Positions 7,937 through 45,858 of a stretch of DNA of 64,000 nt are shown here, in pieces (within the stretch, counting starts at the first letter, position 1; each line of letters opens with the position of its first letter). The notes beneath the pieces were generated by a model, which was given only the letters and a program-made list of their open reading frames with translations, searched no databases and was not told where the DNA came from. This stretch comes from Streptomyces sp. NBC_01439 (GTDB lineage: Bacteria > Actinomycetota > Actinomycetes > Streptomycetales > Streptomycetaceae). Location of the stretch: the NCBI RefSeq assembly GCF_036227605.1, contig NZ_CP109487.1, positions 1-64,000 of the forward strand, read 5' to 3'. Both the position numbers and the translations under genes were made by a program.

Positions 7937-8005
7937 CGATAACCACTCCCGAAAAGCGCCCGCAAGGGGCGGCGAATACACCGGGCCCTTCGGTGTCAGT
8001 CAGCC

Positions 8006-24303: not shown

Positions 24304-26094
24304 TCAGAGGATCGGGTTGCAGTCATCGGCGTAGAGCACCTTGTACGTGCCGGTACCCGTCGCTGCCGCCGGGCTGCTCGACACCTGGACACCCCAGTAG
24401 GGGAAGGGGTCGGAGGGTCCGAACGTGTGGGCGTACGTCTTGCTGAACGAGGTCTGCCCGGCAGGGATGGTGATCCTGTCCGTCGCCACGGCGGGGCCCG
24501 GCCCACGGGTGTTGCTGTGGAACCAGGTGAGGATCAGCGTTCCGGTGGAGGCGCCGTCGGTCTTCACGGATGCGACAGCCTGGGTGCCGAACTTGCCGGA
24601 GCAGCCGTACTGGGAGAGGGACACGGCCAGCACCCGCACGGTGGGGGACACGACCGGCGGTGCGACGGGTGGTGACCCAGGGGCCGCGGTCGTGGTGGAG
24701 GGCGTCGGCCGTGCTGCCGCATCCGTGGAAGCGGGTCCCGCACCCGGAGCGGACGACGGCCCCCCGGCCGTCGTGGAACCCTCCACGGCACCGCCGGTGC
24801 CGGTTCCGCCGTCGGCAGCGGGACCGGCAGTAGTCCCCGACTGCTCGGAACCGGGGGCGGTGGTGGAGCGGGGTCCTGTGGGGCGGGTGCCGGTCGGGGA
24901 GGCCAGCGCGCCGGGCGAGACGGTCGAGCCTGCGGCATCGGGAGCGCCCGGAGCGCCGGGAGCGTCGGCGGACTGAGGAGCGGAGCCTGCGGCGCCGGCC
25001 TCCGAGCCGTCCTCTTCAGCGATCGCGGACAGCGTGAGGACCCCGGTGAGCAGAAGGGCGGCAGACGCGGCGACGACTGCGGCCGGGCGTCGGCCGGCAA
25101 GGAGACCGCGGGATCGCGGCCGACCCGATGCCGCCGCTGCGGAACGTCCCGTTCCCGCAGTGGTGGTTGTCTCGGCGAGCGTGGTGTCCGCGAAGGTCGT
25201 CGTCGCGGTCACGGCGTCGTCCGCAGAGCGCACCAGCATCGGCAGGAGTGTGAGGAGCGCGGCCATTCTGCGCTGCCCTCGCACCTCCCAGTCCTCGCCG
25301 TACGCGCGGGACGCCAGGGCGTCCAGCTCCCGGACGAACGCGGCGGCGCTCGGCGGCCGTTCCACGGCCCGCTTGGCCAGGCCACGGCGGATCAGCGGCC
25401 GCAGCGCCTCAGGCACTCGGTCGTCGGGTATGGGCGCCTCGATGTGCTGAACCGCCAGTTCGGCAGCCGTGGTGCCCGGGTACGGCTTGGAGCCGGCGAG
25501 GCACTCGAAGAAGACGGCCGTCGCGGCGTAGACGTCGGTGACGGGGGTGACGGCGTGCCCGGTCCACTGCTCGGGAGCCATGTAGGGCGGGGTGCCGGCG
25601 ATGTCGGAGGCGTCCCCGCTGGCCACTGCGATCCCGAAGTCCACCAGCTTGGAGCAGCCGTCGAGGCCGACCAGAATGTTCTCCGGCTTGTAGTCCCGGT
25701 GCACCAGCCCCGCCTCGTGAGCTGCGGCAAGTCCGAGCAACGAGCCCTTGAGCACGGTGAGGGCCGCTTCGGGACCCGTGGGACCTTCCTGGCGCAGCAG
25801 CGTCCTGAGCGAGACCCCGTCCACCAGTTCCATGACGATCGCGGCGCCTTCGAGGTGCTCGACGTAGTCGTCGATCCGTACCACGTACGGTGACCGCAAG
25901 CCCATCAGCAGACGGGCCTCGGCACGGAAGGCGGTGCGCGCGCCGTGGGTCAGATACTTGATCGCCACCCGGGTGCCGGACACCTGGTCCAGAGCTTCGA
26001 CGACCCTCCCGCAGGCGCCGGCGCCCAGTTCCCTGCCATGGATGTAGCCGGGCACCTCCCACTGTCGAGTCGCGCCCATGTCCCCGTCGTCCAC
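24304..26094 (-). CDS. receptor-type Ser/Thr protein kinase (PknB-like)
   Basis: Transmembrane Hanks-type kinase of 596 residues. The kinase domain spans about residues 17-275: glycine loop GAGACGRV, catalytic Lys in VAIKYL (residue 46), HRDYKPENILV, DFGIAVAS and YMAPEQW. One transmembrane helix follows (AAVVAASAALLLTGVLTL), then a long Pro/Thr/Ser/Ala-rich linker and an outer domain of about 110 residues with Cys at each end (YGCSGKFG, ADDCNPIL). It would phosphorylate cytoplasmic targets in response to an outside signal. GTG at 26094 is chosen for GAGG 6 bp upstream; ATG 26079 and 26136 are alternatives. A shared 17-bp palindrome lies upstream. Confidence 0.9.
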   Translation of the reverse strand: MDDGDMGATRQWEVPGYIHGRELGAGACGRVVEALDQVSGTRVAIKYLTHGARTAFRAEARLLMGLRSPYVVRIDDYVEHLEGAAIVMELVDGVSLRTLLRQEGPTGPEAALTVLKGSLLGLAAAHEAGLVHRDYKPENILVGLDGCSKLVDFGIAVASGDASDIAGTPPYMAPEQWTGHAVTPVTDVYAATAVFFECLAGSKPYPGTTAAELAVQHIEAPIPDDRVPEALRPLIRRGLAKRAVERPPSAAAFVRELDALASRAYGEDWEVRGQRRMAALLTLLPMLVRSADDAVTATTTFADTTLAETTTTAGTGRSAAAASGRPRSRGLLAGRRPAAVVAASAALLLTGVLTLSAIAEEDGSEAGAAGSAPQSADAPGAPGAPDAAGSTVSPGALASPTGTRPTGPRSTTAPGSEQSGTTAGPAADGGTGTGGAVEGSTTAGGPSSAPGAGPASTDAAARPTPSTTTAAPGSPPVAPPVVSPTVRVLAVSLSQYGCSGKFGTQAVASVKTDGASTGTLILTWFHSNTRGPGPAVATDRITIPAGQTSFSKTYAHTFGPSDPFPYWGVQVSSSPAAATGTGTYKVLYADDCNPIL

Positions 26095-26209
26095 TGTTGC
26101 CCTCGCTGCGTCGTCGCCGTGCGCGCCCGGGAGCATGCCTCCCACCGCGCGGGCAGCCGGCCCGGCCGGCTGCTGCGGCCAGTCAACCGGCCGGCCTCGT
26201 CGAGGCGCG

Positions 26210-26226
26210 TGAGCAACCGGTACTCA
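26210..26226. promoter_or_regulatory. 17-bp palindrome TGAGCA-N5-TACTCA, copy 1
   Basis: TGAGCAACCGGTACTCA upstream of the kinase operon, 116 bp from its start. Read toward the gene it is TGAGTA-N5-TGCTCA, and 23 bp further on stands TTGACT (plus-strand 26181-26186), a good -35 hexamer. Confidence 0.65.
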
Positions 26227-26292
26227 TCCGACGTGCGGCATCGGTCGCGTCCCGTCCGGCGCGGGCCGGCACCTCCACCACCGCTTCCCCGG

Positions 26293-27378
26293 TCAGCGGG
26301 TGGGTTCGGCCACGATCACCGCGGCGACGGAAGTCTGCTTGTAGGCCAGTTCGAGGTGGGTGGGATGGGCGGTGGTCGTGAAGCCTTCCGGCTGCTCGCC
26401 GGCGGGTCGGGGCAGGGGGACGGGGGTGAATCCGCAGGCGGTCAGACGGTTGATCCACGTGCGCGTCGGCTCGTGCCGTTCGAAGCGGGAGGTCTCGCAG
26501 ACGGCGCCCACGACATCCTCGATCTCGCGGCCGAAGAAGCGCTTCATCTCGCGCTTCTCCCCGTCGGTGGCGCTGGTGGCGTCGATCGCGGCGAAGACCG
26601 TGCCGTAGTGGTGCCAGGCGTTGGCCAGCCTGACCGGCAACGGGACGAGGTGGTGATCGCTGTCGGGTTCGCACAGTGCCAGCGCGGCCGGCTCCAGGGC
26701 GCGCAGCCGCCGCAGAAGTGTGGCGCGTGCGTCCTGTTCACCTGAGTGGTTCAGCATGTGGTGGAGAGCGAAGGAGGCCGTGACGAGCAGAGGGCGGGGC
26801 GCATGCTCGACCAACGCCCACACGCTCTCGTCCGTGTCCTCGCTCGCGGCGAGAATCGGACGGAAGTCGACCCGGGTTCCTTCAGGCACTTCCGGTCCGT
26901 TCAGGGCCCGGTCGGCCGCGTCAAGGCTCTCCGCGGCGACATCGGCACCGATGACGGTCACCCGCTCCAGCCCCGCGCGGGCCACCAGGTCCAGCTCCTG
27001 ACGGCCCTGACCGATTCCGAGAGCGAGAACGGTCGCCTCCTGCCGGTCCGCGCAGTACTTCAACAGGGCATCGTTGGCGAACCTCCCCGCCCGCAGGAAC
27101 GGCAGGTGCTGGTGCATCAGGTAGAACAGGTCGATCTGGGGCATGCCGTCGGCACGGAGGTAGAGATTGGCGGGCCGGTCCTGGCCGAGGCGGGCAGCCA
27201 GACCGGCGAGGAAATAGTCGCCCAGGCCCGGGCCGTCCTTAGAGAACTCGCCCGCCTGCTTCAAGCAGGCAGTGAAGCGCTCCATTTCGCCTGATTCGGC
27301 GGCGATTGCAGCCGTTTTGAGAAGTGAATAGATGTTGTTTGTCCCGTAATGCCATTTACTGATCAACATTTCGCGCAC
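26293..27378 (-). CDS. bacterial GRAS-domain protein
   Basis: Protein of 361 residues resembling the GRAS family, known as plant gibberellin-signalling regulators and present in some bacteria as Rossmann-fold, methyltransferase-like proteins. The centre has a nucleotide-type loop (VLALGIGQGRQELDLV). The C-terminal part has the clearest match: RFFGREIEDVV, a run like VACEGxxRxERHE (here VCETSRFERHEPTRTW), and INRLTACGFTPVPLP, which corresponds to the SAW region of plant members. Likely an S-adenosylmethionine or small-ligand binder. It starts 78 bp after the permease gene, so both are probably one operon. GTG at 27378 with GAGG just upstream. Confidence 0.75.
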   Translation of the reverse strand: MREMLISKWHYGTNNIYSLLKTAAIAAESGEMERFTACLKQAGEFSKDGPGLGDYFLAGLAARLGQDRPANLYLRADGMPQIDLFYLMHQHLPFLRAGRFANDALLKYCADRQEATVLALGIGQGRQELDLVARAGLERVTVIGADVAAESLDAADRALNGPEVPEGTRVDFRPILAASEDTDESVWALVEHAPRPLLVTASFALHHMLNHSGEQDARATLLRRLRALEPAALALCEPDSDHHLVPLPVRLANAWHHYGTVFAAIDATSATDGEKREMKRFFGREIEDVVGAVCETSRFERHEPTRTWINRLTACGFTPVPLPRPAGEQPEGFTTTAHPTHLELAYKQTSVAAVIVAEPTR

Positions 27379-27456
27379 TAATCCTCTAAGTCGTCTGCGA
27401 GCACGGACAGGGGCGCATTGCCTGATTCCTTCTCGCCCCGCCGGGCCGCGGACCGC

Positions 27457-28893
27457 TCACCGATGTCCTACGGACGTCAACGGACGGCCTCCGCGAGGCG
27501 CAGCGGTGACCTCGCCCTTTCCGGCCAGCACCGCGTAGAGGGCACCGCTCACCAGCAGCCCCACGACGAACGAGACGTCGGCGCCGTCCATGGCCTCGGC
27601 GACCGGTCCGCGGAAGAGGCCGGTCGAGACGAACGGGACCATCGCGACGAGACCCATGCCGTACGAGACCAGGCCGCGCCAGGACCAGCGTCCGTAGATG
27701 CCCTGGTCGTCGAAGATGTCCCGGATCACGTACTGGCCCTTGCGGATGGCGTAGTAGTCGACGAGGTTGACCGCAGTCCAGGGGACCAGGAAGTAGAGCA
27801 TCAGCAGGACGAAGCTGCTGAAGCTGGCCACGTAGTCGTCGGGCAGGGACAGGGCCAGCGCGAGCACCACGGCGCCGACGGACAGGACGACGACGGTCCG
27901 CAGGCGACTCGTCGGCCGGTCCCGCCGGAAGGCGTCCACCGCGCTCACCGCGGTGAGCATCGCACCGTAGGTGTTGACGCCCATGACACTGATCAGGGCC
28001 AGAGCCGATACCAGAACGACGAGTGAGCCGAAGCCCGAGACGATGCCGTTGCCGGTCCGGAGCAATCCGGCGACGGCATCGTCGGCAGGCATACGGCTGC
28101 CGACGAACGCGCCCAGGGACATCAGCCACACCGCGGAGCCGGCCGCACCCGCGTAGGTCCACCAGATGACCTGGCGGGGGTTGGCGTCCGCGGGCAGGTA
28201 CCGGGAGTAGTCCGACACGTAGACGGCGTAGCTGATCTGGTAGCCGGCTGCAGCTGCGAAGACGGTCAGGAACGAGGTCCACGGGCTGCCGGTCGCAGGG
28301 GTGACGACCGGCGCGTCCCACCATTGAACGACCGTTCCGGCGGTGAGCATCCCGAACACCAGGACGAGAAGTCCGGTCAGGACGCGTTGTACGAGGTGGA
28401 TCAGGTCATGCCCCACCAAGGCCAACACCACCGACACCACAGCCAGGACGGGGTACCAGAGCCAGGGGCCGCCGCCGACGATCTGTGTCAGTCCCTGGGC
28501 CGCGAGCACGGTGTTGAAGACGTTGAAGCCCAGGTAGACGAAGACGACGGCCGTGAACGGTACGACGGCTCCCCGGACCCCGAACTGGGCTCTGGACTGG
28601 ATCATCTGAGGCAGGCCCATACGGGGCCCCTGGTTGGCGTGGACCGCCATGAAGAACGTGCCGAAGCAGGCACCGAGGACCACAGCCGCCACCGACCACC
28701 CCAGGCCGAGGCCGATCGAGGGGCCGATGAATCCGATGACGAGGGTGGTCAGGACGAAATTGCCGGAGAACCAGAACGGGCCCTGGTGCCAGAGCTTGCC
28801 GTGACGTTCGTCCACGGGGATGTAGTCGATGGACCGTACCTCGGGGGCGGTCAGCTGAGTGAGACGGCGACGCGGGGCTTGCTGGTCGTGCAC
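27457..28893 (-). CDS. NCS1-family nucleobase permease (cytosine/purine/allantoin type)
   Basis: Membrane transporter of 478 residues with about twelve transmembrane helices. Family marks are the early motif PFWFSGNFVLTTLVIGFIGP, GLPQMIQSRAQFG, and repeated small-residue helices. NCS1 transporters move cytosine, purines, allantoin, hydantoins or thiamine-type compounds with H+ or Na+; the substrate cannot be told here. GTG at 28893 is chosen because AAAGGA lies 7 bp upstream and the longer frame upstream is not protein-like. The 17-bp palindrome lies 101 bp upstream and the GRAS gene follows. Confidence 0.88.
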   Translation of the reverse strand: MHDQQAPRRRLTQLTAPEVRSIDYIPVDERHGKLWHQGPFWFSGNFVLTTLVIGFIGPSIGLGLGWSVAAVVLGACFGTFFMAVHANQGPRMGLPQMIQSRAQFGVRGAVVPFTAVVFVYLGFNVFNTVLAAQGLTQIVGGGPWLWYPVLAVVSVVLALVGHDLIHLVQRVLTGLLVLVFGMLTAGTVVQWWDAPVVTPATGSPWTSFLTVFAAAAGYQISYAVYVSDYSRYLPADANPRQVIWWTYAGAAGSAVWLMSLGAFVGSRMPADDAVAGLLRTGNGIVSGFGSLVVLVSALALISVMGVNTYGAMLTAVSAVDAFRRDRPTSRLRTVVVLSVGAVVLALALSLPDDYVASFSSFVLLMLYFLVPWTAVNLVDYYAIRKGQYVIRDIFDDQGIYGRWSWRGLVSYGMGLVAMVPFVSTGLFRGPVAEAMDGADVSFVVGLLVSGALYAVLAGKGEVTAAPRGGRPLTSVGHR

Positions 28894-28993
28894 AGGGGGG
28901 TCCTTTGCGCTCAGGGCTGGAAGCAGCGGCCATACCGCGACCGGGTGGCCGGCTGCCTCGGAAGAGTCAACCGAGCGCCGGAGCCTTGGCACA

Positions 28994-29010
28994 TGAGCAA
29001 GCACTACTCA
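28994..29010. promoter_or_regulatory. 17-bp palindrome TGAGCA-N5-TACTCA, copy 2
   Basis: TGAGCAAGCACTACTCA upstream of the permease-GRAS operon. TTGACT (plus-strand 28965-28970) stands 23 bp downstream in the direction of transcription, exactly as at copy 1. The rest of the 28894-29234 stretch holds only this promoter region; no gene was seen. Confidence 0.65.
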
Positions 29011-29234
29011 TCCCGGTGCCACCGGGGTCGTCCGTGGAGGAGTCCGGGACGCGTGTGGCACGAGGCCGGGCGGGGCCCCTCAGCCGCTGCGCACACCCGT
29101 GCGACAGGTCCCGCGAGTACCTCTGCGCGGGCGCACCGTCTCGCGCCCGCCCACGGTGAATCGACTGCGCACGTTCGGCGGCAGTCGTCGTCTCCCTGAT
29201 GGTCGCAGGACTGCTGAGAGAGCGCGAAAGTTGG

Positions 29235-29897
29235 TCAATCCGATGCTTCACAACGTTCGGGAACGTTCCAGGCGGCCGCGTCCTGGACATCGGGTCCGTT
29301 GATTTCCACAGCGTTCTGACGGACGTCGACGAACAGGGCCACGGGCTCCATGTCCTCGACTCCGAAGAACGACACACGGCCTGCACCGCCGAGCTCCTTG
29401 GCGGAGGTCCCTGCGAAGATCAAGGGAAGACGATACTCGCAGTACGTGTCATGGTCGCGGAACGCTCCGCTCACGACGACATCGGCATGATCGTGCAGTG
29501 ACAGGACGTGGACCCGCAGCAGACTCGGGGCCGGATTGACGCGCAGATGATCCAGGAGGGCCTCGACCCGAGAGTCCCTCCTCAGCTTTCTGGCCTCCAG
29601 GAGGTAGATGCCGGGATTCCCCTCGTCGTCCACTGCCGGCCTCCATTCCACGACGTCTTCCGCCGTGATCTCATGGCCGACGCTCCGAAGTCCGTCCAGT
29701 GCTTCTTCCAGGGTCGAGGCATCCTCGATGACGAGATCCGTCAGCAGGTCCTCATCGAACTCATCGAACTCTTCCGAGAACCGGGGAAGGGTTTCAAGTC
29801 GTGCCCGCTGTTCAATGAGTATGTGCCCGCGCCACGCCTCGAAATTCTCGACGGAGGGAAATGTGAGCCGCATTCTGAATTCAATGCCGAAGGTCAT
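29235..29897 (-). CDS. hypothetical acidic protein
   Basis: Cytosolic 220-residue protein, acidic and mixed alpha/beta, with clear strands such as VHVLSLHDHADVVVSG and a helix ENFEAWRGHILIEQRARL. Codon use is less GC-biased than in its neighbours. ATG at 29897 follows a GAGGATGGACAGAGG purine run. A small gene ends 13 bp upstream, so the two are likely one operon. Not recognised. Confidence 0.6.
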   Translation of the reverse strand: MTFGIEFRMRLTFPSVENFEAWRGHILIEQRARLETLPRFSEEFDEFDEDLLTDLVIEDASTLEEALDGLRSVGHEITAEDVVEWRPAVDDEGNPGIYLLEARKLRRDSRVEALLDHLRVNPAPSLLRVHVLSLHDHADVVVSGAFRDHDTYCEYRLPLIFAGTSAKELGGAGRVSFFGVEDMEPVALFVDVRQNAVEINGPDVQDAAAWNVPERCEASD

Positions 29898-29910
29898 CCT
29901 CTGTCCATCC

Positions 29911-30162
29911 TCATGTACGTGGGTTCGTTTCAGTACTCTCGTCGTGCAGGTTCTTGCGCCGGTGGGGAAACCGACCTTGACGCCGGGCTCCGACGCCCAG
30001 CGCTCGGCGCGGCCGGGAATCCCGTCCACCCGAGGCCGTGATGCCCGGCATGCGTACGGCGCGGAAAACCCGGCGGTTTCGGGCCCGCGCGGACGCCCCC
30101 TCCCGTGCGACATCGGCCAACTCGCGTTCGGATATGATCCGCTTCAGCGGCCGATACGCCAT
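29911..30162 (-). CDS. small basic hypothetical protein
   Basis: Short 83-residue, Arg-rich protein (MAYRPLKRIISERELADVAR). The main support is an excellent ribosome site (AGGAG, 5 bp, ATG at 30162) and its position just before the 29897 gene. The upstream 300 bp (30163-30462), which separate it from the rightward regulator, hold no other gene that I can support and no copy of the 17-bp palindrome. Confidence 0.4.
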   Translation of the reverse strand: MAYRPLKRIISERELADVAREGASARARNRRVFRAVRMPGITASGGRDSRPRRALGVGARRQGRFPHRRKNLHDESTETNPRT

Positions 30163-30462
30163 CCATTCTCCTGACGCCACAACCCGGTTCCGCACGCCAG
30201 CCCGCAACTCACCGCCTGCGAGCGCCACGGACCGCCGTCAGGCCATGGGCGCACCTCGTGATCAACGCGTGGCGCAGCGTGCTTGAGCAGCCCGTTTCGC
30301 GCATTCTCCTCCGCCTTCCCTTTCGGTGGTGTCAAACGAGAACTGCCGCACGCCGGCGGTCGGACGTGAACAGCGCTCGATCGGGTCGCGTCGGCGAGCT
30401 CGGCCGCGAAGGCCGCGGGCGTCGGCGAAACCGGGCAGGAGCCAACCAGTGGGGGCAGAGGA

Positions 30463-33111
30463 ATGAATCGAAACGGTGTCGTGCAACGGTGGCCGCTGGT
30501 CGGGCGCGAGGCCGAGCTGAAGGATTTCGACGAGGTCGTGTCGGAACCTCGCAGCGCCGCCTTTCTGGTCTTCGGGCCGGCCGGAGTGGGCAAGTCCCGG
30601 CTGGCCGAGGAGTGCCTGGACCGTGCCGTCGTGCTCGGACACCGGATCGGCAGGGCGGTTGCCACCTCGGCGGCGGCGTCGGTTCCGCTGGGCGCCATCG
30701 CCCATCTGCTGCCCGACGGCGTCGATCTGTCCGACCCGGTCTCCGGATTCGCCAGTGTGGCCAGGCTGCTGTCGCGGCCGGGTACGGCGCGGCCCCGCAT
30801 GGTGATCCTGGTCGACGACGTCCACCTGCTCGACGCGACCTCGGCCATGTTGTTGCGGCAGTTGATGGACGCCGGGGTCATCTTCCTGCTGGGAACGGTT
30901 CGGTCGGAGGAAAGCCAGGCGCTGGCGGTGGCCGCGCTCGGACACGGGGACGCCGTACGGCAGGTGGACCTCGTCGGGTTCACCCGTGGGCAGGTCGTGA
31001 CGGTGCTGGAACAGGTCCTGGAGGGGCCGGTCGTGAGGAGCGCGGTCAACCACCTCCTCACGAACAGCGGGGGCAATCCCCTCTACCTGCGGGAGCTGGT
31101 GGTGGGAGCCGTGGCCGCCGGAGTGCTGACCTGCGACGGCGAGATCTGGGACATGACCGCGGACCGGCTGCCGGGCACGCGGCGCCTGACCGATCTGATC
31201 CGGTCCCGGCTCTCCGTCGCCGCACCCGCCGGCCGACAGGTACTGGACGTCCTGTCTCTGTGCGAGCCGCTCTCCCTGGGCCACCTGGAGATGGACACCG
31301 AACCGCAGGTGCTGAACGAGTTGGAGCAGTCGGGGCTGATCGTCGTCGTCCAGGAGGAAAGACGCTCAGCGGTCCGGCTGGCCCACCCCCTCTACGGTGA
31401 GGTGCTGCGCGCGGACATGACGGCCCAGCGCCGCAGGGAGACCCTGCTCCGGCAGGTCCATCTGCTGAAGCGCACCGGGGCCCGTCGCCGCGAGGACGCG
31501 GTCCACCTCGCCACGTACAAGCTCGCGGCCACCGGCACGGCCAATCCGGGTCTGCTCGTCCGCGCGGCAGCCCTGGCCGCGCACGCCCGCGAGTACCCCC
31601 GCGCGCTCGATCTCCTGCGGGCGATCCCGGAGCAGCACCAGAGCTTCCAGGTCCAGCTGCTACTGGGCAACACCCTGTACGAGGCCGGTGAGTACCAGCA
31701 GGCGGAAGACGCGCTGTCGCGGGCCGACGTCATGGCCACGACCGAACAGGACGTTCTGTCCGTACTGCCGGTCCGGATACAGAACCTCCTGTGGGGCGTG
31801 GGAACACCCTACGAGGAGGTTCTCGACCTCCTCGCATCCGTCCGCAGCCGGGTCACCAGTGCCCTCGGTCACCGCGTCCTGCTGGCCAACGAAGCCGCCA
31901 GCGCGCTCACCGTGGGAGACGTCGGACACAGCCTTGCCCTCAGCGCGGACCTCGAACTTGAGGGCGCGCACGCACCCGACGGCCAGACATGGCTGTGGGC
32001 CGCCATGACCAGGTCCACGGCTCTTGCGGTCACGGGTCGCGGGGAGGAGGCCGAGGGCTGGATCCGACGTGTCATGGCCTTCAGCGCGGCCGTGGGCGAA
32101 ACCCACTCCGCGGCCACGCACGAGGTGGCCCACCGGGCGGTTCTCGTCCTCGCCCTGGCGGAGAGCGGCCGTCTGGCCGAGGCGCAAGAGGTCGGTGAGC
32201 GGGCCTTCGCGGGCCTCACGGACGCGAGCGCGACCGCGGACCGTCGACTGCTGGCCTTCTATCTGGCCCGTGGCACATGGACCGCCGGCCACCCGGCTCA
32301 GGCGCGGCGCTGGTTCGCGGAGGTGGCCCGAGCGTCCCGCCCGTACACCCCCGTCGTGCTGTCGATGGCGCTGGCGGGTCTGGCGGCGTCCGCCGCACTG
32401 CAGGGAGACTGCGAAGCGGCGGAAGCAGCCCTGGCCGAACGCGATCGGCTTCCCGCCGCGGGGTTCTTCCCCGAAGAGAGCCTGGGCGAGGCCTGGCTGT
32501 ACGTCGCCCGCGGTGAGCTGACCCGCGCTCGAACGGTCCTGACGGCGGCCGCCAGGGAGGCGTTCGAGCGCGGGGAAACCGCGTCCGAGGCGATTCTGCT
32601 GACCGACCTCGTCCGCCTCGGGCAAGCCGGGGAAGCCGCCGTGCGGCTGACCGAGATAGCGCAGGAGCGCACCGGGCGCTTCCACCGGGCCCGCGCCGAT
32701 CTGGCCGTCGCATGGTCCACCCGCGACCCGGACGGGCTGCTCGCCGCCGCGGACGCTCTGCAGGCCATGGGAGCGGACCTGCTGGCAGCCGAGGCGGCGA
32801 GCACCGCTGCCGCCGCCCTGCGAACGGCCGGACAGACCCGTCGGGCCAACGCCGCCGCCGTCCGCTCCGACGAGCTCGCGGCCCGCTGCGAGGGAGCGAG
32901 AACCCCTGCCCTCATGGCGTGCGCGGAGGTCGTGCAACTCACCGTGAGGGAGCGCGAAATCGCCCTGCTCGCCTCCCGGGGCATGCTCAGCAAGGACATC
33001 GCCGCCGCGCTGACCATCTCCGTACGCACCGTCGACAACCACCTGCAACGCATTTACAACAAGCTCGGCATCACCACGCGCAAGGAACTGGCCGACCGAC
33101 TGCTTCCGTAA
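30463..33111 (+). CDS. LAL-type LuxR family transcriptional regulator
   Basis: Large ATP-binding regulator of 882 residues. The N-terminal AAA module has Walker A (FGPAGVGKSRL, about residue 38) and Walker B (MVILVDDVHLLD, about 112). A TPR-rich middle (residues 370-800) follows, and the C-terminus is a LuxR HTH (LTVREREIALLASRGMLSKD ... SVRTVDNHLQRIYNKLG). Such proteins act as signal-responsive activators of pathway genes. It is the only intact regulator in the 23.6-34.8 kb block and so a candidate to read the shared 17-bp palindrome. ATG at 30463 with AGAGGA upstream. Confidence 0.9.
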   Translation: MNRNGVVQRWPLVGREAELKDFDEVVSEPRSAAFLVFGPAGVGKSRLAEECLDRAVVLGHRIGRAVATSAAASVPLGAIAHLLPDGVDLSDPVSGFASVARLLSRPGTARPRMVILVDDVHLLDATSAMLLRQLMDAGVIFLLGTVRSEESQALAVAALGHGDAVRQVDLVGFTRGQVVTVLEQVLEGPVVRSAVNHLLTNSGGNPLYLRELVVGAVAAGVLTCDGEIWDMTADRLPGTRRLTDLIRSRLSVAAPAGRQVLDVLSLCEPLSLGHLEMDTEPQVLNELEQSGLIVVVQEERRSAVRLAHPLYGEVLRADMTAQRRRETLLRQVHLLKRTGARRREDAVHLATYKLAATGTANPGLLVRAAALAAHAREYPRALDLLRAIPEQHQSFQVQLLLGNTLYEAGEYQQAEDALSRADVMATTEQDVLSVLPVRIQNLLWGVGTPYEEVLDLLASVRSRVTSALGHRVLLANEAASALTVGDVGHSLALSADLELEGAHAPDGQTWLWAAMTRSTALAVTGRGEEAEGWIRRVMAFSAAVGETHSAATHEVAHRAVLVLALAESGRLAEAQEVGERAFAGLTDASATADRRLLAFYLARGTWTAGHPAQARRWFAEVARASRPYTPVVLSMALAGLAASAALQGDCEAAEAALAERDRLPAAGFFPEESLGEAWLYVARGELTRARTVLTAAAREAFERGETASEAILLTDLVRLGQAGEAAVRLTEIAQERTGRFHRARADLAVAWSTRDPDGLLAAADALQAMGADLLAAEAASTAAAALRTAGQTRRANAAAVRSDELAARCEGARTPALMACAEVVQLTVREREIALLASRGMLSKDIAAALTISVRTVDNHLQRIYNKLGITTRKELADRLLP

Positions 33112-33130
33112 CCGTGCAGCGAGGCTTCCG

Positions 33131-33976
33131 TCAGGTGTGCCGGGTCGCCGTGAGCATTTCACGGAACCCTTCCACAAATTCCCGGCCGGCCGCACCGTCG
33201 TCGAGGGGGAAGGGATAGCTGGACGACTCGCTGGAATCCAGCCACGCCGACCTCACATAGATTTCACGCTCCCCCTCACTGTCCTCCCGGCGAGGCGTCT
33301 CGCTCACCATGGTCTGCTGAAGTCTCCCGACAAAAGCGACTCCGCGCCCTTCGGTGTGCGCTATCAAAATGATGACCAGGTTCTCGGTGAGAACGCATGC
33401 CTCGATCACGGGAGCCGGCCCGGCATATGCGCCTCGCGGGAGCACGCCGTTGTCCGAATACCGCGTTTCGCAGCACAGCCTTGTAGCGGCGCGGAGATCC
33501 CCCAACGAGTACCTGTGCACCGTGTCCTCCAGCAGGGGGAGGAGGCGTTCATCGAGCTCGGTAATGCGGCACAGCCTGGTGTGACGCTCCCTCGGGCCCT
33601 CGCCGGCGACCGCCCCCAGCCCCCATTGCGCGTACAGGGAAAAAGGCGAGAACCGTGCCTGGAGGAACATGAACGCCAGACCGGCGATGATGCATACCGC
33701 CCCGGTGGTCGAGAAGACGGTTTCTCCGCGCTCAATGCCTGACGCCAGCAGGCCCAGCCCTGCCGCGGCAACGGATGCCGTGCCCATCACAGTCGTTCCG
33801 CGTATGGCAAGCATCACCGAGATCGTGATGCTCAACGTGAAGACCGTGGCGATCCATCCCATCGACCAGGCCATGTCAGGACTGTACGAGACGGAGGCGA
33901 TGGAATACACGGAGAACGTTTCCCCCAAGAGGGCTGCAGCTGCCAGAGCCGCTACGGAGGACTTACTGTTCAGCAT
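33131..33976 (-). CDS. multi-TM membrane protein with cytoplasmic tail
   Basis: Protein of 281 residues. Four N-terminal transmembrane helices (about 7-26, 35-57, 62-80, 88-106) are followed by a 165-residue soluble region containing RLCRITELDERLLPLLEDTV and ENLVIILIAHTE. It converges with the LuxR-type regulator and has its own copy of the 17-bp palindrome 107 bp upstream, plus a GAACGCC-A-GGCGTTC palindrome. AAGGAG lies 12 bp before the ATG. Unknown function; possibly a membrane sensor. Confidence 0.65.
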   Translation of the reverse strand: MLNSKSSVAALAAAALLGETFSVYSIASVSYSPDMAWSMGWIATVFTLSITISVMLAIRGTTVMGTASVAAAGLGLLASGIERGETVFSTTGAVCIIAGLAFMFLQARFSPFSLYAQWGLGAVAGEGPRERHTRLCRITELDERLLPLLEDTVHRYSLGDLRAATRLCCETRYSDNGVLPRGAYAGPAPVIEACVLTENLVIILIAHTEGRGVAFVGRLQQTMVSETPRREDSEGEREIYVRSAWLDSSESSSYPFPLDDGAAGREFVEGFREMLTATRHT

Positions 33977-34033
33977 GAGGGAAACGCACTCCTTAGGGTT
34001 GTCCTGAAAATGCCGGCACGGGTTGGAAGATGT

Positions 34034-34048
34034 GAACGCCAGGCGTTC
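34034..34048. promoter_or_regulatory. perfect palindrome GAACGCC-A-GGCGTTC
   Basis: Seven-base arms around a single A, between the 17-bp palindrome (34083) and the membrane-protein start (33976). Position is compatible with an operator over the promoter. No equal was found at the other three units. Confidence 0.4.
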
Positions 34049-34082
34049 GGTTGGAGTCTTGCGCGTACCCGGCCGGGTGTCG

Positions 34083-34099
34083 TGAGCAGCACCTACTCA
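34083..34099. promoter_or_regulatory. 17-bp palindrome TGAGCA-N5-TACTCA, copy 3
   Basis: TGAGCAGCACCTACTCA upstream of the membrane-protein gene. An AAGACT hexamer (plus-strand 34055-34060) stands 22 bp downstream in the direction of transcription, in place of TTGACT. Confidence 0.6.
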
Positions 34100-34269
34100 G
34101 CCCGGACCGCCGCGTTCACGGACCGTTAGGGGCGGTTTGATCCAGTAGGCGGAGCCTCGCCGGAGCCGGCCGGTTCGCTCTGCACGCGCTGCGGTCGGCC
34201 GGCGCCGCGCGCGCCGGGAGCCCGGCGCTCCGCACCGTGCCAGCGGCCGGCCTGCGCGCAACCGACCTG

Positions 34270-34716
34270 CTACCGGGCCGGCTCCCGCATGAGGCCGTGC
34301 GCGGTCTCCCGCAGCTCGTCGCTGAAGGCGAGGGGCTTCAGGGTCTCCGGGTCGATCCGGACCTGCACCCGATGACCGTGAGCATGCACACAGCGGCCGT
34401 CGCCGGATCTCACCTGGAACTCGTACATCACGCTGGTGCGGCCGAGCCGTGAAATCCGGAACCACACGCCCACGTCCCCCGTGCCGCGAATCGGCTCCTC
34501 GTACGTGACCATGAATTCACGCACGACGAGATGCGTGTCGCGATACCGTGAGCGATCAGGATCCGTGCTCCAGCCCTGTTCTCGCCAATAGGTCGTGATC
34601 GCTCGTTCGACGAACAGCGCATGGCGCGAATTGTGCACCATTCCCAGGAAATCCAGGTCGTCGAAATGTACCTGGACCGATTGGATGTGTCCCGCTTCGA
34701 CGGGCAGTTCCTGCAT
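34270..34716 (-). CDS. hotdog-fold acyl-CoA thioesterase (4HBT/YbgC-like)
   Basis: Protein of 148 residues with the 4HBT pattern: VHFDDLDFLGMVHNSRHALF, in which the Asp and the following helix form the active site, then EPIRGTGDVGVWFRI and SVMYEFQVRSGDG for the beta sheet. Expected to hydrolyse small acyl-CoA or acyl-ACP thioesters; substrate unknown. ATG at 34716 has AGGGGGA 8 bp upstream, so the longer frame from 34782 is not needed. The 17-bp palindrome lies 86 bp upstream. Confidence 0.82.
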   Translation of the reverse strand: MQELPVEAGHIQSVQVHFDDLDFLGMVHNSRHALFVERAITTYWREQGWSTDPDRSRYRDTHLVVREFMVTYEEPIRGTGDVGVWFRISRLGRTSVMYEFQVRSGDGRCVHAHGHRVQVRIDPETLKPLAFSDELRETAHGLMREPAR

Positions 34717-34801
34717 GGCCGTTCCCCCTGCTGCCTGATCTTCCACGTCCGGTCGAATCGACGCCCGGTCACAGACGACCACGACTGCCGGATGATCCGC
34801 A

Positions 34802-34818
34802 TGAGTAGCCGGTACTCA
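34802..34818. promoter_or_regulatory. 17-bp palindrome TGAGTA-N5-TACTCA, copy 4
   Basis: TGAGTAGCCGGTACTCA, the only fully symmetric copy, upstream of the thioesterase gene. Twenty-three bp downstream in the direction of transcription is TCGTCT (plus-strand 34773-34778), a weak -35. Confidence 0.65.
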
Positions 34819-34992: not shown

Positions 34993-35763
34993 CTATCCGG
35001 CGAGGGCGAGATTATGCATTCGAGCGATGCCGAGCATGGCGTGGTGGACGCCGTCGCCTTTGAGGCGGCAGTCGCGGAGGATCTTCCAGGTCTTCATACG
35101 GGCGAAGACATGCTCGACCCGGGCTCGGACCTGCTTGTGGGACTTGTTGTGTTCCCCTTTCCAGTACGGGAGTTCGGTCTGGCCACGCTCACGGCGGTGC
35201 GGGATGACAAGTCCGGTGCCTAGGTAGCCGCCGTCGGCGATCGTGAGGGTCTTGCCGACTGAGGCTTTGGCGCCGGACTCCTCCCATGCCTTGCAGTCGT
35301 TGCGGTTGCCGGCGAGCGGTCGGCCGACCACGACGATCAGGCGGGTGTCGGCATCGATGACGACCTGGTGGTTGGTGGAGTAGCGATAGTCCTTGGATTG
35401 GGCGGCGATGGTGTGGTCGCGGGTGGGGACCAGGGTTCCGTCCACGATGAGCACAGTGTCCTTGGCGAACCGATCTCGAGGCTGGAGCGCGAGCATCGGC
35501 CCGAGGTGATCGATGATGCGGTCCGCCGCCGATTTGGACACCCCGAACAGCGGGGCGAGCTGGCGCATGGTCAGGTTCGTGCGCCAGTAAGCCGCGACGA
35601 GCAGTGCCCGGTCCTCCAGCGGAAGACTCCACGGCCGACCCTTGCGGACCGCATCCGCGCCCTCGCGCCGCAGCACCGTCACGAGCTTGCCGAAGTTGCG
35701 AGGGCTCAGCCCGGTGAACGGGGCTATCCAGGACGGCTCCGACGCCGTGATCACACCAGACAC
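34993..35763 (-). CDS. IS5-family transposase (DDE_Tnp_4 type)
   Basis: Transposase of 256 residues. An N-terminal HTH (TMRQLAPLFGVSKSAADRII) is followed by the catalytic DDE triad: VLIVDGTLVPT (first Asp), LTIADGGYLGTG (second Asp) and RARVEHVFARMK (Glu). The middle contains NHQVVIDADTRLI. It runs leftward with its stop 66 bp from the left end of the element. The frame is intact, so the element may still move. Confidence 0.92.
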   Translation of the reverse strand: MSGVITASEPSWIAPFTGLSPRNFGKLVTVLRREGADAVRKGRPWSLPLEDRALLVAAYWRTNLTMRQLAPLFGVSKSAADRIIDHLGPMLALQPRDRFAKDTVLIVDGTLVPTRDHTIAAQSKDYRYSTNHQVVIDADTRLIVVVGRPLAGNRNDCKAWEESGAKASVGKTLTIADGGYLGTGLVIPHRRERGQTELPYWKGEHNKSHKQVRARVEHVFARMKTWKILRDCRLKGDGVHHAMLGIARMHNLALAG

Positions 35764-36676: not shown

Positions 36677-37979
36677 ATGTACTCGGAATGGATAGGGCGT
36701 CGGGTGGCTCGTATACCCAAGGAATCCGGAAACCTCCCGGGAGATACGACAAGTTTCGTCGGGCGAAAGCACGACGTGGCACGGTCTCGGCAGCTGCAGG
36801 GCCGAACAAGGCTGTTGACCCTGACCGGACCTGGCGGGATGGGAAAGAGCCGGCTTGCCCTGCGCGTGGCGGCGCAAGTGCGCCGTTCCTTCCCTGACGG
36901 GGCATGGCTGGCGGACCTGGCAGCAGTGGAGAAGGAGGAGCTGCTCGAACACGCCGTGCTCGCTGCGCTCGAACCGGGCCACGACATGGGGCAGCATCCG
37001 CTGGCCGCCCTCACCGATTTCCTGCAGGGCAAGCGGCTCCTGCTGGTGCTCGACAACTGTGAGCACCTGTTGCACGGCTGTGCGCTGCTGGTCCACGCAT
37101 TGCTGGCTTCAGCCCCGGGCCTGCAGGTGCTCGCCACCAGCCGGCAATCCCTGGGCGTGGCCGGAGAGCACCTGCTGACGGTATCCCCTCTGTCTGCTCC
37201 GCATCCGGACGATCCCGGGCAGGTCACAGCGGCTGGCCAGAGTGAGGCGCTGCGGCTGTTCGCGGACCGGGCAGCTGCCACTCTGGGCGAGCACGCGCTG
37301 TCTGAGTTGGGCAGGGCGGCTGCTCTGATCTGTCATCGTCTTGACGGGATTCCCCTGGCTGTCGAGCTGGCTGCCGCTCGTATGCGGGTGCTGACGTGCG
37401 AGCAGATCCTGGACCGGCTGGATGACCGGTTCGCGTTGCTGACGGGTGGAAGCAAGGCCGCACCGGCTCGTCAGCAGACCATGCGCGCAGCGGTCGATTG
37501 GAGTTATGACCTGTGTGGGCCGCAGGAGCAGCTGCTGTGGGGCCCGTTTGTCCGTCTTCCCCGGCAGTTTCGACCTTGAGGCGGTGGAGACGGTGTGTAC
37601 CGCCGAGGGTCTCACCGCGAAAGAGGCGTTGGATGCCGTGACAGGCCTGGTGGACAAGTCGGTCCTGAACCGGGAGGACGATCACCTGTGCGCGCTACCG
37701 GATGCTTGAGACACTGCGTCAGTACGGTCGCGAAAGGCTTGGCGAGCGGGGTGAGGTAGAGGGGGTACGTCGCCGCCATCGCGACCGTTACCGGAGCCAG
37801 GTCCTACTCGCCGAGGCCGAGTGGTTCACCGGGAGGCAGACCGAGTGGTTCGCCCGCCTCCGCCAAGAGCGGGCGAACCTGCGCACCGCCCTCGACTTTT
37901 GCCTGTCCCATACCGGTGAGGCCCGTGCAGGGCTGGAGATGGTGTCGGCGACGGCTGAACTCGGACCCTCTGACGGCGT
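36677..37979 (+). pseudogene. 5' part of NB-ARC/LuxR regulator gene, frameshifted and IS-split
   Basis: Encodes the ATPase part of a large regulator: Walker A (TGPGGMGKSRL), LLLVLDNCEHLL, ATSRQSLGVAGE and GIPLAVELAAARM, the NB-ARC series. One extra G near 37545 shifts LLWARLSVFPGSFD out of frame and one missing base near 37693 shifts HLCRYRMLETLRQYG back. The reading then ends at the IS21 element. The same gene resumes after the element at 40191. Two breaks plus an insertion make function unlikely. Confidence 0.8.
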
Positions 37980-38047
37980 ATCAAAAGTGACCCACTTGGT
38001 GATCTTCATCTGACTCTGACCTTGGTGATCAAGGTCAGGAGGGAAGG

Positions 38048-39295
38048 GTGATCCTCGTGGAGGACTGGGCAGAGATCCGCCGGCTGCATCGGGCCGAGCG
38101 GATGCCGATCCGGGCAATCGCCCGGCATCTGGGGATCTCGAGGAACACGGTCAAGCGGGCTCTGGCCACGGACCGGCCACCGAAGTACGAGCGTGCGGTG
38201 AAGGGCTCGGCGGTCGACGCGGTCGAGGTGCAGATCCGTGAGCTTCTGCGGGAGACCCCGACGATGCCGGCGACGGTGATCGCGGAGCGGATCGGCTGGG
38301 ACCGCGGGATGACGATCCTCAAAGACCGGGTGCGCGAGCTCCGGCCGGCCTATGTTCCGGTCGACCCGGTCTCGCGGACGGTTTATCGGCCCGGCGAGCT
38401 GGCCCAGTGCGACCTGTGGTTTCCCGAGGCGGACATTCCGCTGGGCTATGGGCAGTGCGGGCGGATGCCGGTGCTGGTGATGGTCTCCGGCTACTCGCGG
38501 GTGATCACCGCGAGGATGCTGCCCTCGAGGCGGACCGGGGACCTGATCGACGGGCACTGGCGGCTGCTGACCGAGTGGGGTGCGGTGCCCAAGACGCTGG
38601 TCTGGGACAACGAGGCCGGCGTCGGCCGCGGCCGCCCGACCTCCGAGTTCGCCGCGTTCGCGGGCCTGCTCGCCACGAAGATCTACTTGTGCCGACCTCG
38701 CGATCCAGAAGCGAAGGGCCTGGTCGAGAGGGCGAACGGCTACCTGGAGACCTCGTTCCTGCCCGGCCGCCACTTCAGCGGCCCGGACGATTTCAACAGC
38801 CAGCTGACGGCCTGGCTGAAGGTCGCCAACCGCAGGATCCACCGCACCCTCGGCGCCCGCCCGGCCGACCGATGGGAAGCCGACCGGGCCCAGATGCTGA
38901 CCCTCCCGGCCGCCGACCCGCCGACCTGGTGGCGGTTCCAGGTCCGCCTCGGCCGCGACCACTACGTCCGCGTCGACACCTGCGACTACTCCGTCGACCC
39001 GGCCGCGATCGGCCACCAGGTCACCGTCCTGTCCGACAACGAAAAGGTGATCGTCCTGGCCGCGGGCGGGGAGATCGTCGCAGAACACACCCGCTGCTGG
39101 GCCCGCCACCAGACCATCACCGACCCCCAGCACGCCGAAACCGGCCGGATCATGCGCCGAGAACACCACCACCAGCGGCCCACCGGTCACATCCGGTCCG
39201 TCGATTCCGGCCCGCTGGTCGAAGTCGAACAACGCGAGCTTGGCACCTACGACCGTCTGTTCACCGTGATCGACGGTGGAAGAGAGGTGATCTGA
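38048..39295 (+). CDS. istA: IS21 transposase IstA
   Basis: Transposase of 415 residues. An N-terminal HTH (RAIARHLGISRNTVKRAL) is followed by the integrase core with a DDE triad: LAQCDLWFPEADI, LVWDNEAGVG and DPEAKGLVERANGYLE. It joins the element to target DNA, aided by IstB. GTG at 38048. The stop lies one base before the istB start, so the two are coupled. Frame intact. Confidence 0.95.
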   Translation: MILVEDWAEIRRLHRAERMPIRAIARHLGISRNTVKRALATDRPPKYERAVKGSAVDAVEVQIRELLRETPTMPATVIAERIGWDRGMTILKDRVRELRPAYVPVDPVSRTVYRPGELAQCDLWFPEADIPLGYGQCGRMPVLVMVSGYSRVITARMLPSRRTGDLIDGHWRLLTEWGAVPKTLVWDNEAGVGRGRPTSEFAAFAGLLATKIYLCRPRDPEAKGLVERANGYLETSFLPGRHFSGPDDFNSQLTAWLKVANRRIHRTLGARPADRWEADRAQMLTLPAADPPTWWRFQVRLGRDHYVRVDTCDYSVDPAAIGHQVTVLSDNEKVIVLAAGGEIVAEHTRCWARHQTITDPQHAETGRIMRREHHHQRPTGHIRSVDSGPLVEVEQRELGTYDRLFTVIDGGREVI

Positions 39296-39296
39296 C

Positions 39297-40139
39297 ATGC
39301 CCCGCACCACCATCGCCGACACCACCGAGGACACCACCGCCGCTTCGGCTGGAGTGAACCGGCGGACCGGGCAGCAGACCGCCTCCGACCTGGCCTTCCT
39401 CGCCCGCGCGATGAAAGCCCCCGCACTCTTGGATGCCGCGGGCCGACTGGAGGAACGGGCCCGCAAGGAATCCTGGACCCACACCGAATACCTCGTCGCC
39501 TGCCTCCAGCGGGAGGTATCCGCCCGGGAATCCCACGGCGGCGAAGCGAGAGTACGGGCGGCGCGTTTCCCCGCGGTCAAGACCCTGGAGGAACTCGATG
39601 TCACCCACCTGCGCGGCCTGACGCGCCAGCAGCTGGCGCATCTGGGCACGCTGGACTTCATCGCGGGCAAGGAGAACGTCGTCTTCCTCGGCCCGCCCGG
39701 CACCGGCAAGACCCACCTGGCCACCGGACTTGCGGTCCGGGCCTGCCAGGCCGGTCACCGCGTCGCGTTCGCCACCGCGGCCGAGTGGGTCGACCGCCTG
39801 GCCGATGCCCACCACACCGGCCGCCTGGCCGACGAACTCACCCGACTCGGACGCTATCCGCTGATCGTGGTGGACGAGGTGGGATACATCCCCTTCGAGG
39901 CCGAAGCCGCGAATCTGTTCTTCCAGCTCGTCTCGAACAGATACGAACGCGCGTCCGTGATCGTCACCAGCAACAAGCCCTTCGGACGCTGGGGAGAAGT
40001 CTTCGGCGACGAGACTGTCGCCGCCGCCATGATCGACCGCCTCGTCCACCACGCCGAGGTCCACTCCCTCAAGGGAGACTCCTACCGCATGAAAGGACGA
40101 GAACTCGGCCGCGTTCCCACCGTCAACGACAACGACTGA
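39297..40139 (+). CDS. istB: IS21 helper ATPase IstB
   Basis: AAA+ ATPase of 280 residues that selects target DNA and stimulates IstA. Walker A is GPPGTGKTHLATGL (about residue 131), Walker B LIVVDEVGYIPF, followed by a sensor region VIVTSNKPFGRWGE and the characteristic LVHHAEVHSLKGDSYRM near the end. Length and motifs are standard for IstB. Frame intact. Confidence 0.95.
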   Translation: MPRTTIADTTEDTTAASAGVNRRTGQQTASDLAFLARAMKAPALLDAAGRLEERARKESWTHTEYLVACLQREVSARESHGGEARVRAARFPAVKTLEELDVTHLRGLTRQQLAHLGTLDFIAGKENVVFLGPPGTGKTHLATGLAVRACQAGHRVAFATAAEWVDRLADAHHTGRLADELTRLGRYPLIVVDEVGYIPFEAEAANLFFQLVSNRYERASVIVTSNKPFGRWGEVFGDETVAAAMIDRLVHHAEVHSLKGDSYRMKGRELGRVPTVNDND

Positions 40140-40190
40140 ACCGACACCAGCGGGTCACTTTTCAACCGGCCAAACTGGTCCACTTTTCAG

Positions 40191-41277
40191 CCGACGCCGA
40201 CAGATGGGCGGAGGCCTGTGGAGCCACCGGCTGGGTTCGGGGAGTCTGGAGGAGGAGCGCCACTGGCTGGCCCGGAATCTGGCATCGGACCGTACGCCGA
40301 GCCCGGCGAGGGTGAAAGCCCTGTGGGCCGACGGGTGGCTGGCTCTGCTGCGCGGAGACATCGCGTCGGCGCATGCCCGGCTGGCGGAGTGCCACACGCT
40401 GGCCGATTCGCTCGGCGATCTGCTGGTGAAGGCGCACGCCGCGCAGTTCGAAGGCCTGATCGCCCTGTTCCAGGATGACTTCGCGCGTGCAGTGCCCCTT
40501 CTCGACTCGGCTCTTCAGCAGTATCGGGCTCACGGCGACCCGGGCGACACCTGGTCGACGCTGTTCCTCCTCGGCCTGTCCTGCTGCCTGTCCGCAGAGC
40601 CGCGTACTGCCGCCCTCTGCGAAGAGGGCCTGGCTCTGTGCGAGACGCACGATGCTCAGTGGTCCCGCGCCTTCTCACTGTGGATCTCAGGGCTTCGTCT
40701 CTGGCTGACAGGCAACGTTGAGCGGGCTGTCAGTGCTCTCCGGGAGGGGCTGGGTATCGCACGTGCTACAGACAACCGTCTGGCCTTGGCTCAGTGCCTG
40801 GAGGTGCTGGCGTGGGCCCGGGCTGGTGATGGGCACCGTGAGGAAGGCGCCGAGCTTCTGGGGGCGGCTCAGAACGTCTGGCATCAGGTAGGCGCCACTC
40901 TTCCCGGAGTCGGGCGGCTATTGCATCACCGCACCGAATGCGAGGACCTGCTTCTGCAGGCACTGGGCCGTGCCCGCTTCACCGTCCGGGTTCGGGTGGG
41001 AGCCGCCTTCACCACGGAACAGGCTGTCGCCCGTGCCCTTGGCCGGCCAGTACCCGGTCCTGGTGCGGCCCAAGCGTCGGCCTCGCCCCTCACTCCGCGG
41101 GAAACGGCCGTTGCCAAGCTAGTCGCGCAAGGGCTGGCGGACAAGCAGATAGCCGCTCAGCTGGTCATCTCCCATCGCACGGCACAGGGGCATGTCCAGC
41201 GAGCCCTGGCCAAGCTCGGGTTCACCTCCCGCACCCAGATTGCTGTCTGGGTCCGGGAGCAGATGCCACGCACCTGA
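40191..41277 (+). pseudogene. 3' part of the IS-split NB-ARC/LuxR regulator
   Basis: Continues the regulator broken by IS21: SLEEERHWLARNLASD, TPR-like helices, then a C-terminal LuxR HTH (LTPRETAVAKLVAQGLADKQ, IAAQLVISHRTAQGHVQRAL). It has no start of its own before 40204 and no promoter is evident, although an outward promoter in the IS could give a truncated TPR-HTH protein. Downstream, 41278-41869 holds no supportable gene; it contains a short repeat at 41406-41450. Confidence 0.75.
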
Positions 41278-44920: not shown

Positions 44921-45858
44921 CTCTTCCCGTGTTCGACCTGGCCGCCATCGAGCGGACGGTCACCTCGCGGCTGGTCCTGGACACCGTCCAAGACGGGCTG
45001 ATCGCCCATGCCGAAGGCCGCACCGGCGTGCCGCACCCCCTGCACATGGCATTCCCCGAAGCCGACGGCGACTGCCACGTGAAAGCCGGCTGGATCACCG
45101 GCGCCACCAACTTCACCGTCAAGATCGCGACCGGCTTCTACAGCAACTCCGCCCTCGGTATCCCCTCAAACCACGGCCTGGTCTGCGTCGTCAGCGCCCG
45201 CACCGGACAGATACGCGCGGTCCTCGACGACCGCGGTCTGCTGACGGCCTGGCGCACCGCGGCAGCGGGCGCGCTCATCACCCACGCCATGTCCCGCCCC
45301 GATGCCTCGACGCTGGCCGTCTTCGGCACCGGCGAACAAGCCCGCCTCCAGGCCACCTGGCTGGCCGAACTCCGCACCATCAGCACCGTGCTCGTTCACG
45401 GCCGCACCCTGCACAGAGCCAACGCCCTGTGCGAACGGCTCCGCGTACACGGACTGAACGCCCGACCCGCGGTGGCTCAGGACGCGGCCGCCGCCGACAT
45501 GATCATCACTACGACTGCGGCCACAACCCCCGTACTGGACGCCACCCACGTGCGCGAAGGCGCACACGTGACGGGCATCGGCACGGACATGCCCCACAAG
45601 AACGAGCTCCCACCCGCGCTCTTCCGCCGCGCACAGGTCATCGCGACGGACGACCACGCCCAGTGCATCGACCACGGAGACTTCGGCCATGCCGTCCGCG
45701 CCGGAGCCACCGCCCAGGACAGCGACATCCCTGCGGGTGAACTCCTCAAAGCGCCCCTCGACCGCCCCGACACAGCAATCACGGTCGCCGACCTCACCGG
45801 CGTGGGCGCGCTCGACGCGGCACTCGCCTCAGCCGTCCTCGACCAGCTCCTGCGGTAA
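44917..45858 (+). CDS. ornithine cyclodeaminase / mu-crystallin family protein
   Basis: Protein of 313 residues. An early beta domain (HPLHMAFPEADGDCHVKAGW, KIATGFYSN) is followed by a Rossmann fold with STLAVFGTGEQARLQATWL and the family segment VTGIGTDMPHKNELPPALF. Members make proline from ornithine, or reduce cyclic imines and make opine-like or siderophore intermediates. Translation is coupled to the aminotransferase, so the two probably act in one path. Confidence 0.85.
   Translation: MTLPVFDLAAIERTVTSRLVLDTVQDGLIAHAEGRTGVPHPLHMAFPEADGDCHVKAGWITGATNFTVKIATGFYSNSALGIPSNHGLVCVVSARTGQIRAVLDDRGLLTAWRTAAAGALITHAMSRPDASTLAVFGTGEQARLQATWLAELRTISTVLVHGRTLHRANALCERLRVHGLNARPAVAQDAAAADMIITTTAATTPVLDATHVREGAHVTGIGTDMPHKNELPPALFRRAQVIATDDHAQCIDHGDFGHAVRAGATAQDSDIPAGELLKAPLDRPDTAITVADLTGVGALDAALASAVLDQLLR

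Follow-up and report, generated by a model that had tools for sequence, protein, structure and literature searches.

Large ATP-binding regulators of the LuxR family (LAL) recur in the secondary-metabolite gene clusters of Streptomyces. In the accessible parts of the sources concerned, LAL proteins are called poorly studied (PMC3282765), MilO is found to bind direct repeats (PMC11784345) and no consensus site could be predicted for SCO6993 (PMC9628970); published LAL sites there lack a consensus or differ from the element described below. We analysed the first 64 kb (the window) of the single 9.58-Mb contig of Streptomyces sp. NBC_01439 (NZ_CP109487.1, positions 1 to 64,000), where four copies of a 17-bp palindrome, TGAGTA-N5-TRCTCA, lie close to a LAL gene (30463..33111, forward strand). 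The four palindromes are very probably operators of this LAL protein, which, judging from the sequence, would act as a class II activator of four leftward units.

An earlier note on this stretch had called the regulon undescribed, and this holds for the literature that we searched: queries on the half-sites or on LAL operators, run largely on papers outside subscription, returned no report of TGAGTA-N5-TRCTCA as a LAL operator. The regulator family is known; the shared operator with a defined promoter geometry appears to be new. A palindrome with fixed geometry tied to one LAL subfamily would allow regulons and silent clusters to be predicted from sequence alone, and LAL action becomes testable with a short DNA probe.

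The palindromes and the LAL regulator

All four palindromes are read on the reverse strand, each ahead of a leftward unit, as the earlier note had described. TGAGTA-CCGGT-TGCTCA (26210..26226) is the predicted operator of a Ser/Thr kinase gene, TGAGTA-GTGCT-TGCTCA (28994..29010) that of a permease-GRAS unit, TGAGTA-GGTGC-TGCTCA (34083..34099) that of a membrane-protein gene and TGAGTA-CCGGC-TACTCA (34802..34818) that of a thioesterase gene. They end 115, 100, 106 and 85 bp upstream of the likely start codons GTG 26094, GTG 28893, ATG 33976 and ATG 34716, respectively. The gene-distal half is TGAGTA in all four. Nearer the gene, the half-site reads TGCTCA at the first three and TACTCA at the last, in which both halves are perfect.

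Allowing up to two mismatches, the window held nine matches, eight of which are the four palindromes on both strands, compared with a mean of 1.62 in shuffled sequence (0 of 100 shuffles reached nine). The single further match lies at 15744. Across the genome, for which counts cover the one contig, exact TGAGYA-N5-TRCTCA occurred five times, four times in the window and once at 5,545,434, while the reversed-pattern control gave none; the expectation from window base composition was 0.39 exact sites per genome and 0.0004 per 8.6-kb stretch. The genome-wide scan that the earlier note had proposed thus finds about 0.4 sites expected and five present, and the motif is not frequent at random genomic places. 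At up to two mismatches there was little signal genome-wide (44 sites vs. 36 in the control), so the signal resides in the exact form, and later motif counts refer to exact or one-mismatch sites.

The 30463 protein has 882 residues, an N-terminal AAA_16 domain (8.3e-12, residues 11-137) with the Walker A motif GPAGVGKS, and a C-terminal GerE helix-turn-helix (HTH; 4.7e-13, residues 825-878). It thereby shows the features that define the LAL family, namely a size of about 900 residues, an N-terminal ATP-binding domain with Walker A and a C-terminal LuxR-type HTH, and resembles MalT, PikD, RapH and SlnR in its AAA/P-loop and GerE ends. The open reading frame has full-length homologues, and the closest relatives of the LAL protein, like those of the nearby GRAS protein, come from Streptomyces. 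LAL proteins 85-89% identical to it exist outside the genomes searched; the next best among 100 relatives is 54% identical, and the nearest LAL in our genus sample (G157) reaches 68% in the tree alignment. Of the 74 candidates scored among 166 in its genome, no other protein matches LAL model A1 at E ≤ 1e-40, and four of the five palindromes lie within 5 kb of its gene.

Among NCBIfam models, its best match was AbsR2 (NF050132; residues 7-325, E = 2e-52), which we take to be SCO6993, at 178.8 bits against a cut-off of 850. SCO6993 differs in its length of 606 aa and in its sites, which in the accessible part of the report are not TGAGTA-N5-TACTCA (PMC9628970). A further likeness to the LAL family, as described in the available part of PMC3282765, is that the 30463 gene sits among the units that it is predicted to control; unlike described LAL systems, this one shows a single palindrome with fixed promoter geometry common to several families. 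PAS-LuxR regulators such as PimM and SARP-LAL regulators such as PimR share the LuxR HTH or the LAL half and, in the sources available to us, the control of secondary-metabolite clusters. No PAS, SARP (Trans_reg_C) or BTAD domain was detected in the 30463 protein at E ≤ 0.001, and SARP-LAL proteins differ in that they bind heptameric direct repeats, according to the accessible text of PMC5930380.

Co-occurrence of the palindrome with LAL genes

We assessed the association between palindrome and LAL gene in 80 homologue loci from named genomes, the best 80 of 511, which were chosen by protein pattern irrespective of the motif. The 15 closest loci (≥39% identity) contained 15 exact sites in 10 loci, and three of the other 65 contained four between them, at distances of 14-47 bp from a LAL match. 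Across all 180 half-site permutations, with the true half-site among them, the mean was 0.17 sites in the close set and 0.16 in the remainder; apart from the true one, many matches came only from YGAGTA, which overlaps the true half-site and largely recounts the same sites. Within one mismatch, 13 of the 15 closest loci carry the palindrome (one- and two-mismatch sites were looked for in 34 of the 80 loci). The search of homologous loci suggested in the earlier note therefore recovered exact copies in 10 of the 15 closest.

A second set of 20 further LAL loci gave an exact site in 11, one of these 6.1 kb away, with other permutations averaging 0.07. All six homologues from another family of the order had an exact copy 33-109 bp from the LAL match. 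Only two plasmid records held a LAL at E ≤ 1e-60 (42% and 48%): within 10 kb of the LAL gene, one plasmid (L221) carries three exact sites; the other (L222) has none.

Across 392 Streptomyces genomes, the palindrome alone occurred at least once in 174, and the reversed control often equalled it (columns not summed). When a -10-like element at a fixed distance was also required (see below), 47 occurrences were found in 30 genomes compared with 8 control matches. A LAL model match at E ≤ 1e-80 was present in 32 genomes, which is a lower bound because only two candidates per genome were scored; G126, for example, has five LAL candidates in a fuller search and two here. LAL and motif occurred together in 19 genomes compared with 2.4 expected (p = 1.3e-16). 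After excluding the four genomes that built the model, the motif was found in 15 of 28 LAL genomes vs. 11 of 360 others (p = 5e-13). Both were on one contig in 17 of the 19, with the nearest site 6 to 1931 bp from the LAL match in 16 of these 17. In G095 and G338 they lie on different contigs, and in the exception, G079, the site is 1.1 Mb from the LAL; this site is probably part of one conserved coding stretch because the sequence downstream nearly equals those in G091 and G252. The homologue-locus and genus tests are not independent, since the promoter stretches of L087 and L089 are identical to those of G032 and G125.

LAL genes with the palindrome next to them occur in Streptomycetaceae and Streptosporangiaceae, in Acidimicrobiia bins and, with one mismatch, in a Pseudonocardiaceae bin. 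Because it stands beside relatives of one LAL in other actinobacteria, it is most likely the docking site of that LAL. The LuxR-type protein at 30463, which the earlier note had offered as a candidate, is thus strongly supported as the regulator by its co-occurrence with the motif and its proximity to it; much of this evidence comes from loci selected by protein. The same evidence supports the proposed local regulon, except that this type of regulon is not confined to the window but recurs in other genera and families.

Site arrangements varied among loci. The LAL stop codon is overlapped or immediately followed by an exact palindrome in L085, L087, L089, L093 and L208, and the gene behind this palindrome in L087 and L089 encodes a ricin-type lectin. 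L095, which shares a contig with L088, has two palindromes 19 bp apart (7958-7993), and L202 and L203 have extra half-sites beside the palindrome, hinting at cooperative arrays. Far outside Streptomyces, in an Acidimicrobiia and an Acidimicrobiales bin (L153, L118), exact palindromes stand 47 bp before the LAL matches, consistent with autoregulation and an old operator.

Promoter geometry and mode of action

The earlier note had pointed to a -35-like hexamer at a fixed distance from each palindrome. The hexamers and their spacings are as it gave them: TTGACT lies 23 bp on at the first two sites (26181..26186 and 28965..28970), TCGTCT 23 bp on at the site at 34802 (34773..34778) and AAGACT 22 bp on at that at 34083 (34055..34060), all on the reverse strand. 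Their designation as -35-like was not supported. Counting from the palindrome toward the gene, over 62 sites oriented toward the nearest called gene and with no flanks redundant at 55% identity, TTGAC (up to one mismatch) had no preferred offset, whereas an A-N3-T element did. A at +24 with T at +28 was found at 26 of the 62 sites toward the gene and four away from it (mean over offsets 1.84), and the same pair at +25/+29 at eight toward and three away; 0 of 1000 shuffles reached 26 at any offset. In another set, of 11 sites, A-N3-T was at +24 in six of 22 flanks and at +25 in three, compared with a mean of 0.60. With the hexamers taken as -35 elements, a 16-19 bp spacer beyond all four reached no clear -10 by eye.

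The A-N3-T spacing is that of the -10 hexamer NANNNT at +23..+28. The window hexamers occupy this position and therefore probably mark the -10 region, not the -35, and, since TTGAC has no preferred offset and A-N3-T has one, the palindrome most likely lies inside the -35 region itself. AAGACT (+23..+28) fits the family element with A+24 and T+28, while both TTGACT hexamers and TCGTCT, at +24..+29, are at the predicted -10 position with the conserved A missing. TCGACT or TCGAGT occupies the same place in L201-L203, which may hint at a variant -10 element.

If the hexamer is placed at -12..-7, the palindrome would span about -51 to -35 and be centred at -43, which is where class II activators sit. 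In LuxR-type class II activators the lux box is centred near -42.5. The likeness extends to the apparent replacement of the -35 element and to a -10 at a fixed distance, and the placement of the operator in the -35 region at such a distance is indicated for the family by the A-N3-T counts. The lux-type systems differ in half-site and spacing, and the 30463 protein has no autoinducer-binding domain among its Pfam matches. We thus propose that the GerE HTH of the LAL, as a dimer, binds TGAGTA-N5-TRCTCA, which ends 22 bp before the -10 hexamer and would replace the -35 element; the LAL, its N-terminal part presumably sensing a signal, would then recruit RNA polymerase and switch on the kinase, the NCS1 permease and GRAS protein, the membrane protein and the thioesterase.

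Several observations weigh against this proposal. The conserved A at +24/+25 is missing from three of the four window hexamers: only one of the four promoters fits A+24/T+28, and the other three have T at +29 and no A. No palindrome precedes the LAL gene itself, and at the fifth palindrome of the genome the expected place holds no -10-like element. Among the genus genomes, 13 with a LAL were without the -10-bearing motif and 11 with the motif were without a LAL at E ≤ 1e-80, and G162 has 11 palindromes but only a weak, partial LAL match (156 bits). An exact site was absent from nine of the 20 second-set loci, in which the LALs are more divergent (292-678 bits to the model) and one contains an internal stop.

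The same LAL might bind the palindromes and repress, covering the -35 region until a signal arrives, since occupancy of -51 to -35 could also keep polymerase out. We consider this improbable, as the palindrome has no conserved -35 hexamer next to it, and activators typically show what is observed here, a constant distance to the -10 and little other conservation. Precedents in the accessible parts of the literature fall on both sides: the LAL SCO6993 binds palindromes as a repressor (PMC9628970), and both positive and negative effects are described for SCO0877 and SCO7173 (PMC3282765), but the cluster LALs SlnR and MilO are positive regulators.

It is considerably less probable still that the sites are bound by a different regulator, encoded near LAL genes, with the LAL as a passenger of the same clusters. 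In L083, L084 and L086, SARP genes do follow a one-mismatch site, and the window has an interrupted NB-ARC/LuxR regulator gene (36677-41277) as well as an HTH_3 protein at 16959. No further window regulator recurs beside the sites as the LAL does, however, and matches of the LuxR part at 40204 are 48-60 residues long and fall on the LALs' own HTH. The sites also lie close to the LAL gene, as near as 6 bp to its match or across its stop codon, and LAL phylogeny predicts site presence. On a phylogeny of 56 LALs, presence or absence of a site within 3 kb required 10 changes, compared with 19 for shuffled labels (0 of 500 as low); a site within 3 kb was found in 18 of 21 members of a supported clade that includes the window LAL, and in all five members of the window LAL's own subclade. 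The tree drew on 37 of the 80 homologue loci, 19 of the 20 second-set loci and eight earlier LALs, a sample of our choosing in which site-bearing loci are over-represented. Finally, while single copies are common in the genus and often equalled by the reversed control, a chance or repeat origin without regulatory role has a negligible probability given the clustering, the LAL adjacency, the direction-specific -10-like element and flanks that are not repeated at 55% identity in any of the 62 sites.

Predicted target units and neighbouring genes

The units predicted to be activated by the LAL all lie on the reverse strand, and several of their families recur behind the motif elsewhere in other gene orders. 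The membrane Ser/Thr protein kinase (24304..26094; Pkinase 5.4e-37) has a likely GTG start at 26094, with the reading frame open to 26145. A kinase relative (63%) lies behind an exact site in G162 (L071), another (60%), next to the LAL of G157, has a one-mismatch site some 95 bp ahead of its match (L207), and a third (66%) near a LAL of G289 has no site (L209). The NCS1-type permease (27457..28893; Transp_cyt_pur 9.7e-54; likely GTG start 28893) has a relative (42%) behind the exact site 14250 in L098, and the bacterial GRAS-domain protein downstream of it on the same strand (26293..27378; PF03514 6.7e-28) has one (49%) behind the one-mismatch site 5732 in L084. The predicted membrane protein (33131..33976; 281 aa) shows hydrophobic stretches by eye and no Pfam or NCBIfam family match. 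The fourth unit encodes a 4HBT/YbgC-like acyl-CoA thioesterase (34270..34716; likely ATG start 34716, reading frame open to 34782).

A broader reading, which we regard as rather unlikely, is that palindrome and fixed -10 represent one ancient LAL operator across Actinomycetota, with a LAL-kinase feedback loop in one branch. The LAL would turn on the membrane Ser/Thr kinase gene and the kinase would signal back to the LAL, in analogy to AfsK, which acts on AfsR.

A protein without assigned family (29235..29897, reverse strand; likely ATG start 29897) has no site of its own in the window, and its relatives in L098 and L069 have a palindrome directly upstream. Family comparison ruled out a single family for all such proteins beside LAL genes: the proteins of the window, L098 and L069 form one family, those of L101 and L126 another, and that of L117 stands alone. 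In G162 (contigs C4 and C13; L068-L073), the kinase and the 29235 family stand behind two of the 11 palindromes, seven of which are on one 199-kb contig, the same as the weak LAL match. Elsewhere, the genes behind the site encode SARP regulators, a P450, a tryptophan dimethylallyltransferase, berberine-bridge-type oxidases, a transporter, a glycosyltransferase and ricin-type lectins, a spread that is usual for secondary metabolism. The fifth site of the genome (G000:C1:5545434-5545450; L016 7435) lies about 256 bp before the likely ATG of a FAD/BBE oxidase gene with a twin-arginine translocation (TAT)-like start; a related oxidase type stands behind the motif in L082.

Other features of the window lie beyond the thioesterase unit, which is adjoined on its palindrome side by a DDE transposase gene (34993-35763). 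The NB-ARC and LuxR-type regulator gene at 36677-41277 is apparently split by an IS21-type element (38048-40139), with the NB-ARC part before the element and the TPR/GerE part after it. Further on, at 43787-45858, a pyridoxal phosphate-dependent enzyme resembles the capreomycidine synthase VioD and the guanitoxin enzyme GntC, below curated cut-offs, and its gene adjoins an ornithine-cyclodeaminase-like gene; the pair suggests an arginine- or ornithine-derived product.

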